NCBI GenBank assembly: GCA_023957375.1 | Contig: JAMLHB010000002.1 | Span: 496,001-560,000, forward strand | Length of the DNA stretch: 64,000 nucleotides | Reading direction: 5' to 3' | Source: Flavobacteriales bacterium | Lineage (GTDB): Bacteria; Bacteroidota; Bacteroidia; Flavobacteriales_F; PHOS-HE28 | Shown here: positions 48,461-53,496 of the stretch, one piece after another | Layout: each line of letters starts with the position of its first letter | Numbering within the stretch: position 1 is the stretch's first letter | Position numbers and translations under genes: made by a program | The notes under the pieces: model-generated | What the model saw: the letters and a program-made list of their open reading frames with translations, nothing else | Told to the model about the DNA's origin: nothing | The model's database searches: none

Positions 48461-48567
48461 CCTTCTTAAGATGGCATGGGATTGGACACTCCTGCCAGAG
48501 TATGCGTGCGCAGCCGAAACGCCCCATCCCAAGGCGACCTACCTTAGCGGCTTCTGCAAAAGCGCCT

Positions 48568-50667
48568 ATGCCAGCCATTTCCACACGCACCAAGAACGAC
48601 GCATCCGCCCTCGGCCAGGATACCCTGCTCAAAGCTTGGGAGCTGATGTGCACCGCCAAGGCGATGACGGACCTCTACGAGGAGCACTTCAAGTTCACCA
48701 GCAAGTACGTACATGCCACCAGCCGCGGCCACGAGGCCATCCAACTGGCGCTGGGCCTGCAACTGAAGCCACATGACTTCGTGGCTCCCTACTACCGCGA
48801 TGACAGCATATTACTGGGCATCGGCATGCGGCCCTACGAGCTGATGCTGCAACTGATGGCCAAGCGCGACGACCCCTTCAGCGGCGGACGTTCGTACTAC
48901 TGCCATCCCAGCCTGCGACGGGACGACATGCCCAAGATCCCGCACCAGAGCAGCGCCACCGGCATGCAGGCCATTCCCACCACGGGCGTGGCCTTGGGCG
49001 TGCAGTACAAGGAAAAGATGGGCATTGATAAAAGCTACGGTGCCGACAAGCCCGTGGTGGTCTGCTCCATCGGCGATGCCGCCATGACCGAGGGCGAGGT
49101 AAGCGAGGCGCTGCACATGGCCGTCTTGAAGCAACTGCCCATCATCTTTCTGGTGCAGGACAACGAGTGGGACATCAGTGCCACGGCGGAAGAGATCCGC
49201 GCCAACGACGCCAGCTACTATGCCCGCGGTTTCAAAGGGCTGGAGGTACGCAGCATCGACGGTACTGATTTCCCGGTTTGCTGGAACACGCTGCACGAGG
49301 TGATCGCCACCGTGCGCAAGGAACGCAGGCCGTTCCTGGTGCATGCCAAAGTGCCCCTGCTGAACCACCACACCAGCGGCGTGCGCATGAATTTCTACCG
49401 CAGCGAGGAGAACCTCGCCGAACACCGCAAACGCGATCCGCAGCCGCGCTTCTTCCAACAATTGCTCGACCTGGGCATCCAGCACCAAGGCTTGAAAGAA
49501 CTGGAGCGCAAGGCCATCGCCCGGGTGAAGGTGGATTTTGATGAAGCCCGCCAGGCGGAAGACCCGCGCCCGGAGGATCTGTACACCCATGCGTTCGCGC
49601 CCACGCCCGTCACGGAGGAAAAAGGCGAACGCGCACCCAAGGACAAGGAACCCACGCTGATGGTGGATTGCGCGCTCTTCGCCATCCGCGAACTGATGCA
49701 GGAGGATCCGCGCTGCCTGCTCTACGGGCAGGATGTGGGCGCCCGGCTCGGCGGCGTATTCCGCGAAGCCGCCACGCTGGGCACCACCTTTGGCGACCAC
49801 CGCGTGTTCAACACGCCCATCCAGGAAGCCTTCATCGTGGGCAGCACCGTGGGCATGAGCGCCACCGGGCTGAAACCCTTCGTGGAGGTGCAGTTCGCCG
49901 ATTACATCTGGCCGGGCCTCAACCAGCTCTTCACTGAAGTGGCCCGCAGCTGCTACCTCAGCAACGGCAAGTGGCCAGTGAGCTGCGTGGTGCGCGTGCC
50001 CATCGGTGCCTACGGCAGCGGTGGCCCCTACCACAGCAGCAGCGTGGAAAGCGTGCTCTGCAACATCAAGGGCATCAAGGTGGCCTACCCCAGCAACGGC
50101 GCCGACCTCAAGGGCCTGATGAAGGCCGCCTTCCACGACCCGAACCCCGTGGTGATGCTGGAGCACAAGGGCCTCTACTGGAGCAAGATCCCCGGCACGG
50201 AAGAGGCGCGCACCATCGAACCGGCATCGGATTACATCATCCCCTTCGGCAAGGCGCGCACGGTGCTGCAGGCCGATCCCAACAAGGTTGAAAATGGCGA
50301 AGCGGCAGTGATCGTCACCTACGGCATGGGCGTGTACTGGGCAAAGACCGCCGCGAAAAAATTCCCGGGGCGCATCACCATCATCGACTTGCGCACACTG
50401 GTGCCTTGGGATGAACAAGCCGTGCTGGAGGCCGTGCGCAGCCATGGGCGCTGCTTGGTGGTCACCGAGGAAAGCATCAGCAACTCCTTCGCACAAGCCG
50501 TGGCCGGCCGCGTGAGCGACCAGTGTTTCGAGCACCTGGATGCGCCGGTGCGCTTCATCGGCGCGGCAGACATGCCAGCGATCCCGCTGAATAGCACCTT
50601 GGAAGCGGAGATGATCCCCAGCGCGGAGAAGGTGGGCAAGGTGCTGGGGGAATTGCTGGGGTATTGA
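48568..50667 (+). CDS. Fused alpha/beta 2-oxoacid dehydrogenase E1 (branched-chain type)
   Basis: A 699-residue thiamine diphosphate enzyme. Residues 1 to about 330 are the alpha subunit: FVAPYYRDDSILLGIG, then the ThDP motif GDAAMTEGEVSEALHMAVLKQLP and DNEWDIS. From about 355 the beta subunit follows: ALFAIRELMQEDPRCLLYGQDVG, VFNTPIQEAFIVGSTVGMSATG, GAYGSGGPYHSSSVES. The fused form is usual in Bacteroidota and most often oxidises branched-chain oxoacids (from Val, Leu, Ile), passing acyl groups to E2. E2 and E3 genes are not in the window. The ATG at 48568 is preferred; an earlier in-frame ATG at 48502 adds a non-conserved basic stretch. Confidence 0.92.
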   Translation: MPAISTRTKNDASALGQDTLLKAWELMCTAKAMTDLYEEHFKFTSKYVHATSRGHEAIQLALGLQLKPHDFVAPYYRDDSILLGIGMRPYELMLQLMAKRDDPFSGGRSYYCHPSLRRDDMPKIPHQSSATGMQAIPTTGVALGVQYKEKMGIDKSYGADKPVVVCSIGDAAMTEGEVSEALHMAVLKQLPIIFLVQDNEWDISATAEEIRANDASYYARGFKGLEVRSIDGTDFPVCWNTLHEVIATVRKERRPFLVHAKVPLLNHHTSGVRMNFYRSEENLAEHRKRDPQPRFFQQLLDLGIQHQGLKELERKAIARVKVDFDEARQAEDPRPEDLYTHAFAPTPVTEEKGERAPKDKEPTLMVDCALFAIRELMQEDPRCLLYGQDVGARLGGVFREAATLGTTFGDHRVFNTPIQEAFIVGSTVGMSATGLKPFVEVQFADYIWPGLNQLFTEVARSCYLSNGKWPVSCVVRVPIGAYGSGGPYHSSSVESVLCNIKGIKVAYPSNGADLKGLMKAAFHDPNPVVMLEHKGLYWSKIPGTEEARTIEPASDYIIPFGKARTVLQADPNKVENGEAAVIVTYGMGVYWAKTAAKKFPGRITIIDLRTLVPWDEQAVLEAVRSHGRCLVVTEESISNSFAQAVAGRVSDQCFEHLDAPVRFIGAADMPAIPLNSTLEAEMIPSAEKVGKVLGELLGY

Positions 50668-50789
50668 TTATGCCAATTTTGACAGAGCGCCTGATCCGCG
50701 ATGTTGATAATTGTTTATCACGCAGTGCTTCCATCCAACACTCATTGGTATGTTGTCCTGCGTTAAAGTGACGTAGAAACCGTCAACAA

Positions 50790-51098
50790 ATGAGGTTGTT
50801 GGAATTGTTTGCAGGCGGAGGTGGATTGGGGTTGGGCCTCGACCTCGCCGGGCTCAAGGCCGCTGCCGTGGTGGAATGGGACAAGTGGTGCTGCGATACC
50901 ATCCGGCACAACCAGACCTTGGGCTATCCGCTCGTGCAGCATTGGAAAGTACATCATGCGGATGCCAAGACCTTCGACTACGGGTCCCTGGGCCAAGTGG
51001 AACTCGTGTCAGGCGGCCCACCTTGCCAACCGTTTTCCTTGGGCGGAAAGCACAAGGGCTATGATGATGCGCGGGATGCCAATTCTGAAGCATTGTAA
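50790..51098 (+). pseudogene. Cytosine-5 DNA methyltransferase, 5' part only
   Basis: It encodes 102 residues. Motif I is FAGGGGLGLGLDLAG, followed by VVEWDKWCCDTI, and motif IV holds the catalytic Cys in GGPPCQPFSLGGKHKG. The frame then ends in TAA after DARDANSEAL, where a complete enzyme needs motifs VI-X and a target-recognition domain (another ~200-300 residues). No continuation is found in other frames. The fragment cannot methylate DNA. It stands just before a new cassette, whose first gene starts at its stop codon. Confidence 0.85.
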
Positions 51099-51292
51099 TG
51101 AACCCCTACACGATCATCGGGTTTTGGCCGGATTCGATGCAACGCTTCGCGACCATTATTTATGCCGACACACCAAATGAAGCTGAAAAAGAATGCTTTG
51201 ACCAACATCCCGGTGTCGCCGTTTGTGGTGTACTTCTGGGGCGACATTTGTGCGTGGATCAAGTCAAGTGCGTTACTTCGGAGGCGTGTTGA
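51098..51292 (+). CDS. Small conserved-looking protein of the inserted restriction cassette
   Basis: A 64-residue reading frame: MNPYTIIGFWPDSMQRFATI, then IYADTPNEAEKECFDQHPGVAVCGVLLGRHLCVD. The alternation of hydrophobic strands, a helix rich in Glu/Ala and a GVxxGRH turn looks like a folded alpha/beta domain rather than a random frame. I do not recognise a family with certainty. Its ATG overlaps the methyltransferase stop (TAATG), so it begins exactly where the truncated gene ends. Confidence 0.5.
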   Translation: MNPYTIIGFWPDSMQRFATIIYADTPNEAEKECFDQHPGVAVCGVLLGRHLCVDQVKCVTSEAC

Positions 51293-51313
51293 CCTTAATG
51301 GTCCGCCGAACCG

Positions 51314-52327
51314 ATGAGTCGAGAGGTTAGCGCCTTCAAAGTCTCTGAGCTATACTCAAACGAAGAAGTATACCACTCCTTGGCTGTCGGTAATGCCGGT
51401 GGGGTAAGGGTAAGCATCGGCCCATCCTCTGAAGTGCGGCATATAGTGGTCTTCACCTCTATCCCAACCGCTCGTCAACTCGCCGAGAACCCCTACCACG
51501 ATCGATTGGAGGGGGATATTCTCATCTATACCGGTGCTGGTCGGGCAGGGAACCAGTCAGTTTCCGGGGCAAATGCGCGTCTTGCCCAACAACAGGCGGA
51601 AAAATTCCCCATCTACGCGTTCATTCAAATGGGCAATCGTCGGGACCGTGCCCTTGGCAACAAACGATGGGGTTTCTTGGGCCTATTACAGTACCTGCGG
51701 TGCTATCCGGAACATCAGGTTGATGCACAAGGCAAGTTGAGGAGCGTATGGGTGTTCGAGTTCCGTGTTCATTCGAGTTTTAGTGAGTTACCAACTGGTA
51801 AAGCCCATTCTGTCATGCACGACTTATTCGTAAACCACGAAGACGAGTCGAGCACAGCGGACCTTGAAGTGGTGGAACCAAGCTCCGTACAACACGACAG
51901 CAGCCAACCAGATCTCTCCCTACTGGAGCCAATCCGACGGCGCTTGCTCGGCTATGAACCCAGGCAGTTTGAGCATGTGATTCATGACATGCTTAAACAA
52001 TCGGGGTTCGACCAGGTTGAGGTAACCAGGTACAGCCAAGACGGGGGAATTGATATAAACGCCAGGCCGGGTCCGACCGCTTGGCCCCTTCGGCACCTCC
52101 TGATCCAACTCCAAGCAAAACGGTGGCTTCATACCGTAGGCAGAAAAGAAGTCGCTGAACTAAGGGGTAGCTTACAGCCTCACGCATCGGGCTGCATCGT
52201 AACGACCAGCCACTTCTCCCGTGCTGCGCTCATCGAATCGACCGTACCAGGCAAAATCCCCATAACAGCGATTGATGGAATTGAACTGGCCAACATTATC
52301 CACACTATGAAACTCGGACTGAGGTAA
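51314..52327 (+). CDS. Probable modification-dependent restriction endonuclease (SRA-like + Mrr-type)
   Basis: A 337-residue, two-part protein. The N-terminal part holds LEGDILIYTGAGRAGNQSVSGANARL (66-90), the G-D-x-x-x-Y-T-G signature of SRA/YDG-like readers of modified cytosine. The C-terminal part is an Mrr-type PD-(D/E)XK nuclease: Glu220 in RQFEHVIHDMLKQSGF, Asp247 in GGIDINA, then IQLQAKRW with Q-x-K at 267-269, and a final GCIVTTSHFSRAA. Such enzymes cut DNA bearing modified bases. The gene lies between halves of a methylating restriction system. Codon use is less GC-rich than the flanks, indicating acquisition. Confidence 0.78.
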   Translation: MSREVSAFKVSELYSNEEVYHSLAVGNAGGVRVSIGPSSEVRHIVVFTSIPTARQLAENPYHDRLEGDILIYTGAGRAGNQSVSGANARLAQQQAEKFPIYAFIQMGNRRDRALGNKRWGFLGLLQYLRCYPEHQVDAQGKLRSVWVFEFRVHSSFSELPTGKAHSVMHDLFVNHEDESSTADLEVVEPSSVQHDSSQPDLSLLEPIRRRLLGYEPRQFEHVIHDMLKQSGFDQVEVTRYSQDGGIDINARPGPTAWPLRHLLIQLQAKRWLHTVGRKEVAELRGSLQPHASGCIVTTSHFSRAALIESTVPGKIPITAIDGIELANIIHTMKLGLR

Positions 52328-52332
52328 TTGAC

Positions 52333-52794
52333 ATGCTCGCCAAGTACGACACCATTCAACCCACTAAGTACAGTCCAGAAGTTCCCATTTATGTGGGCAA
52401 AGCTGTTCCTGCCGGTGCACGAAAAGGTGATGTGGGCCTGAACAACGAACCCGGTGAAGTGCTGTACAAGCGGTTGAAGGAGCACGCGGAAAGCATTCGG
52501 GCAGCCGAAAGCTTGCACCTCGAAGATTTCACCTGCCGCTACTTGGTGTTGGATGACATCTGGATTCCCTTGGGCGAGGCGCTGGTGATCACCCGCTTCA
52601 GTCCGCTTTGGAACAACTTGATCGACGGATTCGGCAACCACGATCCAGGAAAAGGCCGCTATGCGGGACTTCGTCCCCGTTGGGACACGTTGCATCCGGG
52701 ACGCAAGTGGGCCATGAAATGCAAGGAACGCACCGAGTCGATGGAGCAGATCGAACGGGAAGTGATCGCCCATCTGAAGGCCATGACCGGGTAG
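52333..52794 (+). pseudogene. Eco29kI-family GIY-YIG restriction endonuclease lacking its N-terminus
   Basis: It encodes 153 residues matching the Eco29kI family: PIYVGKAVPAGARKG (the 'YIG' half of the motif), VLYKRLKEHAESI, DFTCRYLVLDDIWIPLGEALVI, RFSPLWNNLIDGFGNHDPGKGRY and WDTLHPGRKWA. Family members have ~200 or more residues and carry the first catalytic Tyr ('GIY' half) in a part upstream of PIYVG. Here only MLAKYDTIQPTKYSPEV precedes it, so that Tyr is absent. The enzyme is probably inactive. In related loci it pairs with a cytosine-5 methyltransferase like the fragment at 50790. Confidence 0.75.
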
Positions 52795-52860
52795 GTGGGC
52801 CTGTGTGGCATGACCTAGTACGCTTCCTTATTGAAAGAGCTCGACCCGCGTGTCGTTTCC

Positions 52861-53496
52861 ATGCAACAACACCACCTCACCGTTCCCCGCACCGCCCGCT
52901 ACCACACGTTGGGCGATGCGGCCAAGGCGCGCGCCATCTGGATCGTGCTGCATGGGTATGGCCAGCTTGCGCGCTACTTCCTGCGGAAGTTCGAGGGCCT
53001 GGAGGATGGGCTGTTGATCGCCGCGCCGGAAGGCCTGTCCCGCTTCTACACCGATGAAGCCCACACCCGCGTAGGCGCCACCTGGATGACGCGCGAGGAC
53101 CGCGAGCACGAGATCGCCGACCAGGCCACCTACCTCGATGCGTTGGTGGGGGAACTGCTTCACTCCACGGGTCAGGTGCCGGTGAACGTGCTCGGCTTCT
53201 CGCAAGGCGTGGCCACGGCGTGTCGCTGGAGCTTGAATGGGCATACTACGATCCAGCGCCTGGTGCTCTGGGCGGGCGGATTGCCGCCGGAACCGGATCC
53301 GCAGCAATTGCATGCGGCTTGGGCGAAGTTGGACCTCCATCTAGTGCTGGGTTCACAGGACCAATACGCTGGGGACAGTGAACTTCAAGCGCAGTCGGCC
53401 CGGCTCTGCATGGCCAACGTATCCCACCAGGTACACCGGTTCCAAGGCGGGCATGAGCTGGAGCAGGTTTTGCTTACCCGATTGCTCAAATCCTGA
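52861..53496 (+). CDS. Alpha/beta-hydrolase, phospholipase/carboxylesterase family
   Basis: A 211-residue protein of the esterase family PF02230. VLHGYGQLARYF (oxyanion loop), the nucleophile elbow GFSQG with Ser114, a probable acidic residue in VLGSQDQYAGD (about 167-176) and the final His in FQGGHELEQ give a full triad. It hydrolyses short-chain carboxylic or acyl esters in the cytoplasm; no signal peptide. The ATG at 52861 is the first good start (a TTG lies 30 bp before). It follows the restriction cassette by 66 bp. Confidence 0.85.
   Translation: MQQHHLTVPRTARYHTLGDAAKARAIWIVLHGYGQLARYFLRKFEGLEDGLLIAAPEGLSRFYTDEAHTRVGATWMTREDREHEIADQATYLDALVGELLHSTGQVPVNVLGFSQGVATACRWSLNGHTTIQRLVLWAGGLPPEPDPQQLHAAWAKLDLHLVLGSQDQYAGDSELQAQSARLCMANVSHQVHRFQGGHELEQVLLTRLLKS

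Follow-up and report, generated by a model that had tools for sequence, protein, structure and literature searches.

Probable recent replacement of the interior of a type II restriction-modification operon by an SRA-Mrr nuclease cassette in a Flavobacteriales genome

In the stretch of DNA analysed here (64,000 nucleotides, G000:C2:496001-560000, hereafter the window), a two-gene cassette comprising a small gene, orf64, and a gene for an SRA-Mrr nuclease has probably taken the place, in recent times, of the interior of a type II restriction-modification (R-M) operon on the chromosome, within a small variable slot. We read this as turnover of a defence slot, in which a predicted MspJI-like nuclease has taken the position of the R-M operon, and it offers a before-and-after case of passage from a type II R-M operon to a predicted modification-dependent nuclease, with the ancestral state, the breakpoints and a rough timing readable from sequence. 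The window belongs to a 1.2 Mb contig of a 3.83 Mb genome assembled in 4 contigs. Its ORF list holds four frames, all on the + strand, between the genes for an E1-type dehydrogenase and an esterase, and the parts named by the original prediction are all present in the order and at the positions it gave, as judged from open reading frames and Pfam matches. The features of the locus are as follows, G032 being a second genome of the same genus and M and R denoting the methyltransferase and the endonuclease.

48502..50667, + strand: 721-aa E1-type 2-oxoacid dehydrogenase (PF00676/PF02779/PF02780), the housekeeping left flank of the slot
50668..50789, + strand: ancestral upstream region of the R-M operon, a putative promoter; also in G032, inside the 89.5% alignment of 49800-51076
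50790..51076, + strand: 5' fragment of a C5-cytosine methyltransferase (PF00145), codons 1-96, up to motif IV (PCQPFS)
51076..51077, no strand: left junction, from ancestral M sequence to foreign sequence (comparison with G032)
51077..51097, + strand: cassette leader, supplying ANSEAL and a stop codon to the methyltransferase fragment (sequence comparison)
51098..51292, + strand: orf64, gene for a 64-aa small protein homologous to 84-85-aa proteins of 3 Bacteroidota genomes
51314..52327, + strand: SRA-Mrr nuclease, 337 aa, intact; SRA at residues ~1-160, Mrr_cat at residues 215-328
52328..52342, no strand: right junction zone, from cassette end to Eco29kI-type sequence (Y-x-x-I at conserved spacing from PIYVGKA)
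52333..52794, + strand: 3' fragment of an Eco29kI-type GIY-YIG endonuclease, 153 aa (PF09517)
52831..52863, + strand: remnant of a DUF2442 gene, first ~11 codons; the gene is intact downstream of R in G032
52861..53496, + strand: esterase / alpha-beta hydrolase (PF02230), the housekeeping right flank of the slot

The ancestral state is preserved in G032 (locus L022), where the same flanks enclose an intact M-R pair, namely a 399-aa C5-methyltransferase followed, with a 4-bp overlap (ATGA), by a 203-aa Eco29kI-type GIY-YIG endonuclease and then by the DUF2442 gene. The alignment with an intact relative that had been proposed as a check thus finds the pair complete at this very locus, and it upholds the proposal that the two fragments in the window are the ends of one ancestral M-R locus. 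Between the left aligned block and a right one at 52378-52863 (86.7%), G032 carries 1,104 bp that complete both M and R and are missing from the window; this ~1.1 kb takes in ~303 codons from the end of M and ~51-68 from the start of R, and ~1.25 kb of lower-GC DNA with orf64 and the nuclease gene stands in its place. The 102-aa frame at 50790-51098 accordingly matches positions 1-88 only of the 324 in PF00145 (E 7e-19), all motifs after IV being absent. For the 153-aa frame, the match to PF09517 RE_Eco29kI begins only at model position 28 and runs to 163 of 164 (E 2.6e-57), in agreement with the prediction of an endonuclease without its N-terminus, and the new ATG of this frame may be fortuitous. 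A complete methyltransferase together with a complete GIY-YIG endonuclease, the mark of an Eco29kI-type II system, is present in G032 and absent from the window. Intact pairs of the same order and 4-bp overlap are also found in other phyla, on plasmids of Paraburkholderia, Halomonas and Corynebacterium, and M-R pairs occur elsewhere in G012 (intact) and, more distantly related, in G059. Because full-length pairs are found in G032, G012, G059 and these plasmids, we judge the full-length arrangement to be the rule and the window copy to be the truncated one.

Comparison with G032 places the left junction at 51076/51077, and the last 6 codons (ANSEAL) and stop of the 102-aa frame are for this reason assigned to cassette or junction DNA; the ATG of orf64 overlaps that stop (TAATG, 51096-51100). 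On the right, Eco29kI protein homology is back by ~52342, according to the Y-x-x-I spacing in an alignment with six full-length endonucleases, which is ~35 bp upstream of the point (52378) where the DNA-level match restarts. As the nuclease stop codon ends at 52327, the right junction is set between these limits, at 52328-52342. The original prediction had put the cassette boundaries at 51095-51100 and 52327-52380, and of these the left must be moved upstream while the right stands in a narrower form. Repeats flanking the two junctions, whether direct or inverted, were absent apart from 10-14-nt pairs at chance level, and the inserted block yielded no target duplication, terminal repeats or integrase/recombinase ORF, these being the features expected of a mobile element or an integron-type cassette. 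No donor sequence was found for the cassette.

The fragments themselves speak to the timing of the event. When the window is compared with G032, the M fragment has a Ks of 0.39, the R fragment 0.42 and the flanking dehydrogenase 0.39, and this agreement argues that the M-R pair was present at the locus beforehand and has diverged in step with its flank. The corresponding Ka/Ks values are low, at 0.05 for M (0.018/0.39) and 0.11 for R, which shows that the pair was functional until recently. Polarisation of the amino-acid changes with G012 assigns 8 to the branch of the window and 4 to that of G032; by our own estimate (Ks ~0.2, ~520 nonsynonymous sites) neutral drift along the whole branch would have given about a hundred, so inactivation takes up only a small part of it. 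Both fragments remain open, with no extra frameshifts or stops, and on these sequence comparisons the loss of M-R is recent. A depletion of CCGCGG as a trace of past restriction was not apparent, the count being unremarkable (24 observed against 37 expected, rank 22 of 63 palindromes). Neither fragment is presumably active any longer. The endonuclease fragment, from which ~30% of the length is gone, lacks the GVYAIYY strand including the GIY-motif tyrosine, a residue that corresponds to Y49 of R.Eco29kI, which is essential in that enzyme, as Y49A has no activity (PMC1952068).

The protein encoded by the intact gene of the cassette is, from its sequence and its modelled structure, an SRA domain joined to an Mrr_cat domain. 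The Mrr nuclease was said to be intact, and so it appears: PF04471 is matched over residues 215-328 with E 2.5e-22 (79.6 bits, cut-off 21), and the catalytic site D247 / Q267-A-K269 (D..QxK) is preserved and aligns with that of other Mrr domains. The SRA-like nature claimed for the N-terminal part is likewise borne out by an AlphaFold2 model, in which an SRA fold has pLDDT ~85-95 across most of residues 1-160 (the C-terminal third being of low confidence, pLDDT 31-60 from residue ~270), and by Foldseek, which among PDB structures ranks MspJI first, with a match across both domains (E 6e-12), ahead of SUVH5 (TMt 0.69-0.71), KRYPTONITE, ScoMcrA and UHRF1. The residues of the base-flipping pocket are kept: Y61, D63 and Y72-T73-G74 are invariant in 25 sequences and align to YND..YTG of SUVH5, which a profile of SRA-HNH proteins also finds, weakly, with the pocket aligned. 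TagI uses Y55, D58 and Y67 in its pocket (PMC6212794), and Y61/D63/Y72 are their equivalents here, with a loop spacing one residue shorter.

With the MspJI family (type IIM; MspJI, AspBHI, LpnPI, FspEI) the nuclease shares an N-terminal SRA-like domain and a C-terminal Mrr_cat domain in the same order, and the D..QxK site. It is, however, shorter (337 aa against ~450 aa for MspJI) and has no significant sequence similarity to the SRA domain of the family; phmmer aligns AspBHI only from residue 193 on (E 0.04), RE_AspBHI_N scores 13.6-15.5 bits against a cut-off of 27, and the sequence similarity in the specificity domain that would mark a family member was not found. As such, we consider the nuclease MspJI-like by architecture, as far as model and sequence indicate, and not a member of the MspJI family at the sequence level. 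By sequence its SRA domain is nearer to Firmicutes SRA-HNH proteins than to the SRA of the MspJI family. The SRA-HNH type IV enzymes (TagI and the ScoMcrA family) have a homologous SRA domain, the structural match to that of ScoMcrA included, and plasmid and chromosomal SRA-HNH proteins are 24-31% identical to it over ~150 aa with the Tyr/Asp/Tyr pocket conserved, but they carry HNH where this nuclease carries Mrr_cat, of the PD-(D/E)XK class. The PADLOC candidate defence proteins PDC-S02 / Mrr-like resemble it in the C-terminal Mrr-type nuclease (E 2e-21), although the match is confined to residues ~188-336 and leaves the SRA domain outside. None of the Pfam, NCBIfam or PADLOC models searched covers the whole of this SRA-Mrr protein.

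With a GC content of 52%, the cassette lies below the 61% of the window and falls among the lowest 1.6% of 1,250-bp segments. No SRA relative of the nuclease was found in the other 44 genomes of the genus or in the phage collection, and since nothing similar occurs in those 44 genomes the cassette was probably acquired horizontally. A genome-contig pattern scan with the 337-aa protein alone returned no relative; through the SRA alignment, we found the only close one, a full-length protein 50% identical and encoded in a Planctomycetes MAG (L073), outside any R-M locus and with a small ORF upstream. When four methyltransferases were used as queries, no methyltransferase gene was found adjoining the SRA nucleases of loci L073-L103. 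As for orf64, it gave no match in Pfam, NCBIfam or PADLOC, but its comparison with the 84-85-aa proteins of three Bacteroidota genomes (L106-L108) scores 85, a value reached by none of 5000 shuffles, and by this measure it is a genuine small gene and not a by-product of the junction. The related family in L106, L107 and L108 has the form MPTYTIIGFEKDG...VVGIVEGEHDN. The small ORF upstream of the L073 nuclease is similar to orf64 in position, with a sequence similarity that is not significant (shuffle P 0.07-0.14), and that orf64 and the nuclease form a conserved two-gene unit is only suspected.

The site of insertion is itself variable. The dehydrogenase is the same left neighbour in ~30 relatives, and in the 25 relatives for which the interval between dehydrogenase and esterase was scored, 18 show a gap of under ~150 bp from one matching flank to the other, so that the two genes adjoin in an empty slot, while the other seven carry different cargo of 0.7-2.4 kb. 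Next to the R fragment, ~264 bp of the DUF2442 gene has been lost from the window. This gene is intact in G032 and G002, and its remnant runs in frame into the esterase, by which the 221-aa ORF from TTG 52831 is recognised as a chimera; the true start of the esterase is probably ATG 52861, to judge from the sequence.

Given one inserted block with one breakpoint in M and one in R, the simplest reading is a single replacement, which we infer removed the catalytic and target-recognition parts of the methyltransferase together with the GIY motif of the endonuclease. That both were lost jointly is of consequence, because a cell deprived of M alone would be killed by the R still active in it; the cost that normally attends loss of the methyltransferase by itself would have been escaped, which points to a way for a host to rid itself of an addictive R-M system. 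Directly after the old methyltransferase start and oriented like it, the cassette probably uses the R-M promoter, as is plausible from the shared direction, the TAATG overlap, the short gaps and a sigma-70 promoter scan that gave no match. The SRA domain would flip 5mC (or 5hmC) of incoming DNA into its Tyr/Asp/Tyr pocket, the Mrr domain would cut nearby in the manner of MspJI, and the locus would go from a self-marking defence that cuts unmethylated DNA to a modification-dependent one that cuts methylated DNA.

The original prediction went further, holding that an SRA-Mrr nuclease cannot coexist with an active 5mC methyltransferase and that the switch from type II to type IV defence was forced. 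Both statements exceed the data, though the conflict is real in principle. G000 encodes three other full-length C5-methyltransferases, of 317, 413 and 413 aa, with all key motifs; one adjoins an HNH endonuclease gene, one lies next to a GHKL ATPase and one is of a type widespread in the genus. The nuclease, if active, therefore has to tolerate at least the marks of these three, and limits on the sequence context in which it acts would spare them. MspJI-family and other type IV enzymes do need certain bases beside their targets, and some methyltransferases are compatible with them (PMC3874153). Among the three residents, the 413-aa enzyme of L043 (1492-2730; G000:C3:517762-518964) is matched by similar proteins of full length in most genomes of the genus, has no recognised endonuclease alongside, and is a candidate core orphan methyltransferase on sequence grounds.

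It is in this light that the forced switch has to be weighed. It supposes that the nuclease recognised the resident methylation and that the survivors were recombinants losing the methyltransferase at the same moment, and the loss of M and gain of the nuclease in one block would fit, as would the killing of cells by McrBC upon entry of a methyltransferase (PMC2614495) and the conflict of R-M with type IV systems documented in Pectobacterium (PMC8989522). It nevertheless strikes us as distinctly unlikely: 5mC as such is evidently tolerated in G000, type IV enzymes can live with subsets of methyltransferases, residual host methylation would still be attacked just after the event, and the nuclease and the lost methyltransferase would have to share a specificity, which nothing indicates. 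We attach still less credence, as an outside chance, to a self-protecting epigenetic inversion, in which one recombination across the M/R overlap put both genes out of action, thereby sparing the cell post-segregational killing, and brought in behind their promoter a nuclease that recognises the lost methyltransferase's mark; were it true, the lineage would have gained the capacity to restrict the DNA of its own sister lineage that carries M-R. With this one pair of relatives, the old debate over conflict between methyltransferases and type IV enzymes becomes open to test.

Other histories would account for the arrangement without any such conflict. That M-R first decayed or was partly deleted, the cassette arriving only afterwards in what was left of it, as part of the normal turnover of a defence slot, is unlikely but deserves consideration, since cargo differs between genomes in this slot and the DUF2442 remnant records a second loss next door; yet two open fragments under purifying selection until recently, the expected lethality of deleting M alone with R active, and the one sharp block all sit better with a single event. 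The arrangement is known from one genome, as assembled, whose contamination is estimated at 1.7%, and a foreign or contaminant cassette might have been joined to a real M-R locus during assembly. This we hold to be highly improbable, as the cassette is embedded in a long contig with homologous M and R sequence on either side, and two independent mis-joins within 1.3 kb would be needed, leaving all the ORFs tightly packed. The idea that one or both truncated products retain a function, for instance as a DNA-binding partner or regulator in a composite system with the nuclease, draws on their open frames, ATG starts and low Ka/Ks, but is barely credible: the recency of the event accounts for the conservation, M has nothing after motif IV, R is shortened and lacks a residue essential in its namesake, and the L073 nuclease has no such partners.

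Some features of the locus have precedents. That type IV genes occur within R-M complexes and that variable restriction loci hold remnants is already known; the new elements are a nuclease of SRA-Mrr type, an ancestral locus to set beside this one and junctions that can be read from sequence. The mcrBC genes have been found inserted in R-M gene complexes (Fukuda et al. 2008, PMC2614495, Fig. 8), which is alike in placing type IV genes inside such a complex, and the present case differs in its SRA-Mrr nuclease, in the ancestral locus found in a relative and in the simultaneous truncation of M and R. The immigration control region of E. coli holds alternative restriction systems and remnants of older ones in a fixed chromosomal slot (PMC3874153), and similar R-M hotspots are described elsewhere (PMC10059834); the likeness lies in the alternation of systems and remnants at a fixed place, whereas the slot seen here is much smaller (0-2.4 kb), is flanked by dehydrogenase and esterase genes and takes non-defence cargo too. 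PcaRCI and PcaRCII of Pectobacterium (PMC8989522) likewise oppose R-M to an endonuclease that depends on 5mC, each requiring the reverse of the other, but in that case the nuclease is silenced by the R-M system and neither gene is lost, while here the nuclease gene physically replaces M-R.

Several minor observations concern the slot and its counterparts. The 3' end of the dehydrogenase gene (49939-50668) is 97.5% identical to G031, against ~80% elsewhere in the neighbourhood, and the match stops just past the stop codon, which suggests, from sequence identity, recombination at the edge of the variable slot. G031 was considered as the nearest relative on account of this match and was rejected, another flanking region being 84% identical to G032 and 80% to G031. 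In G005 (L024 3168-3518, 4138-5007), the slot contains a second copy of part of the dehydrogenase gene, close to an HTH-type ORF, which may have arisen through an insertion with target duplication. Last, an E. coli plasmid of 834 kb (CP054241; L066 3647-4813) encodes an Mrr_cat protein adjoining yjiA and a type I hsdR, in a segment that resembles the immigration control region.
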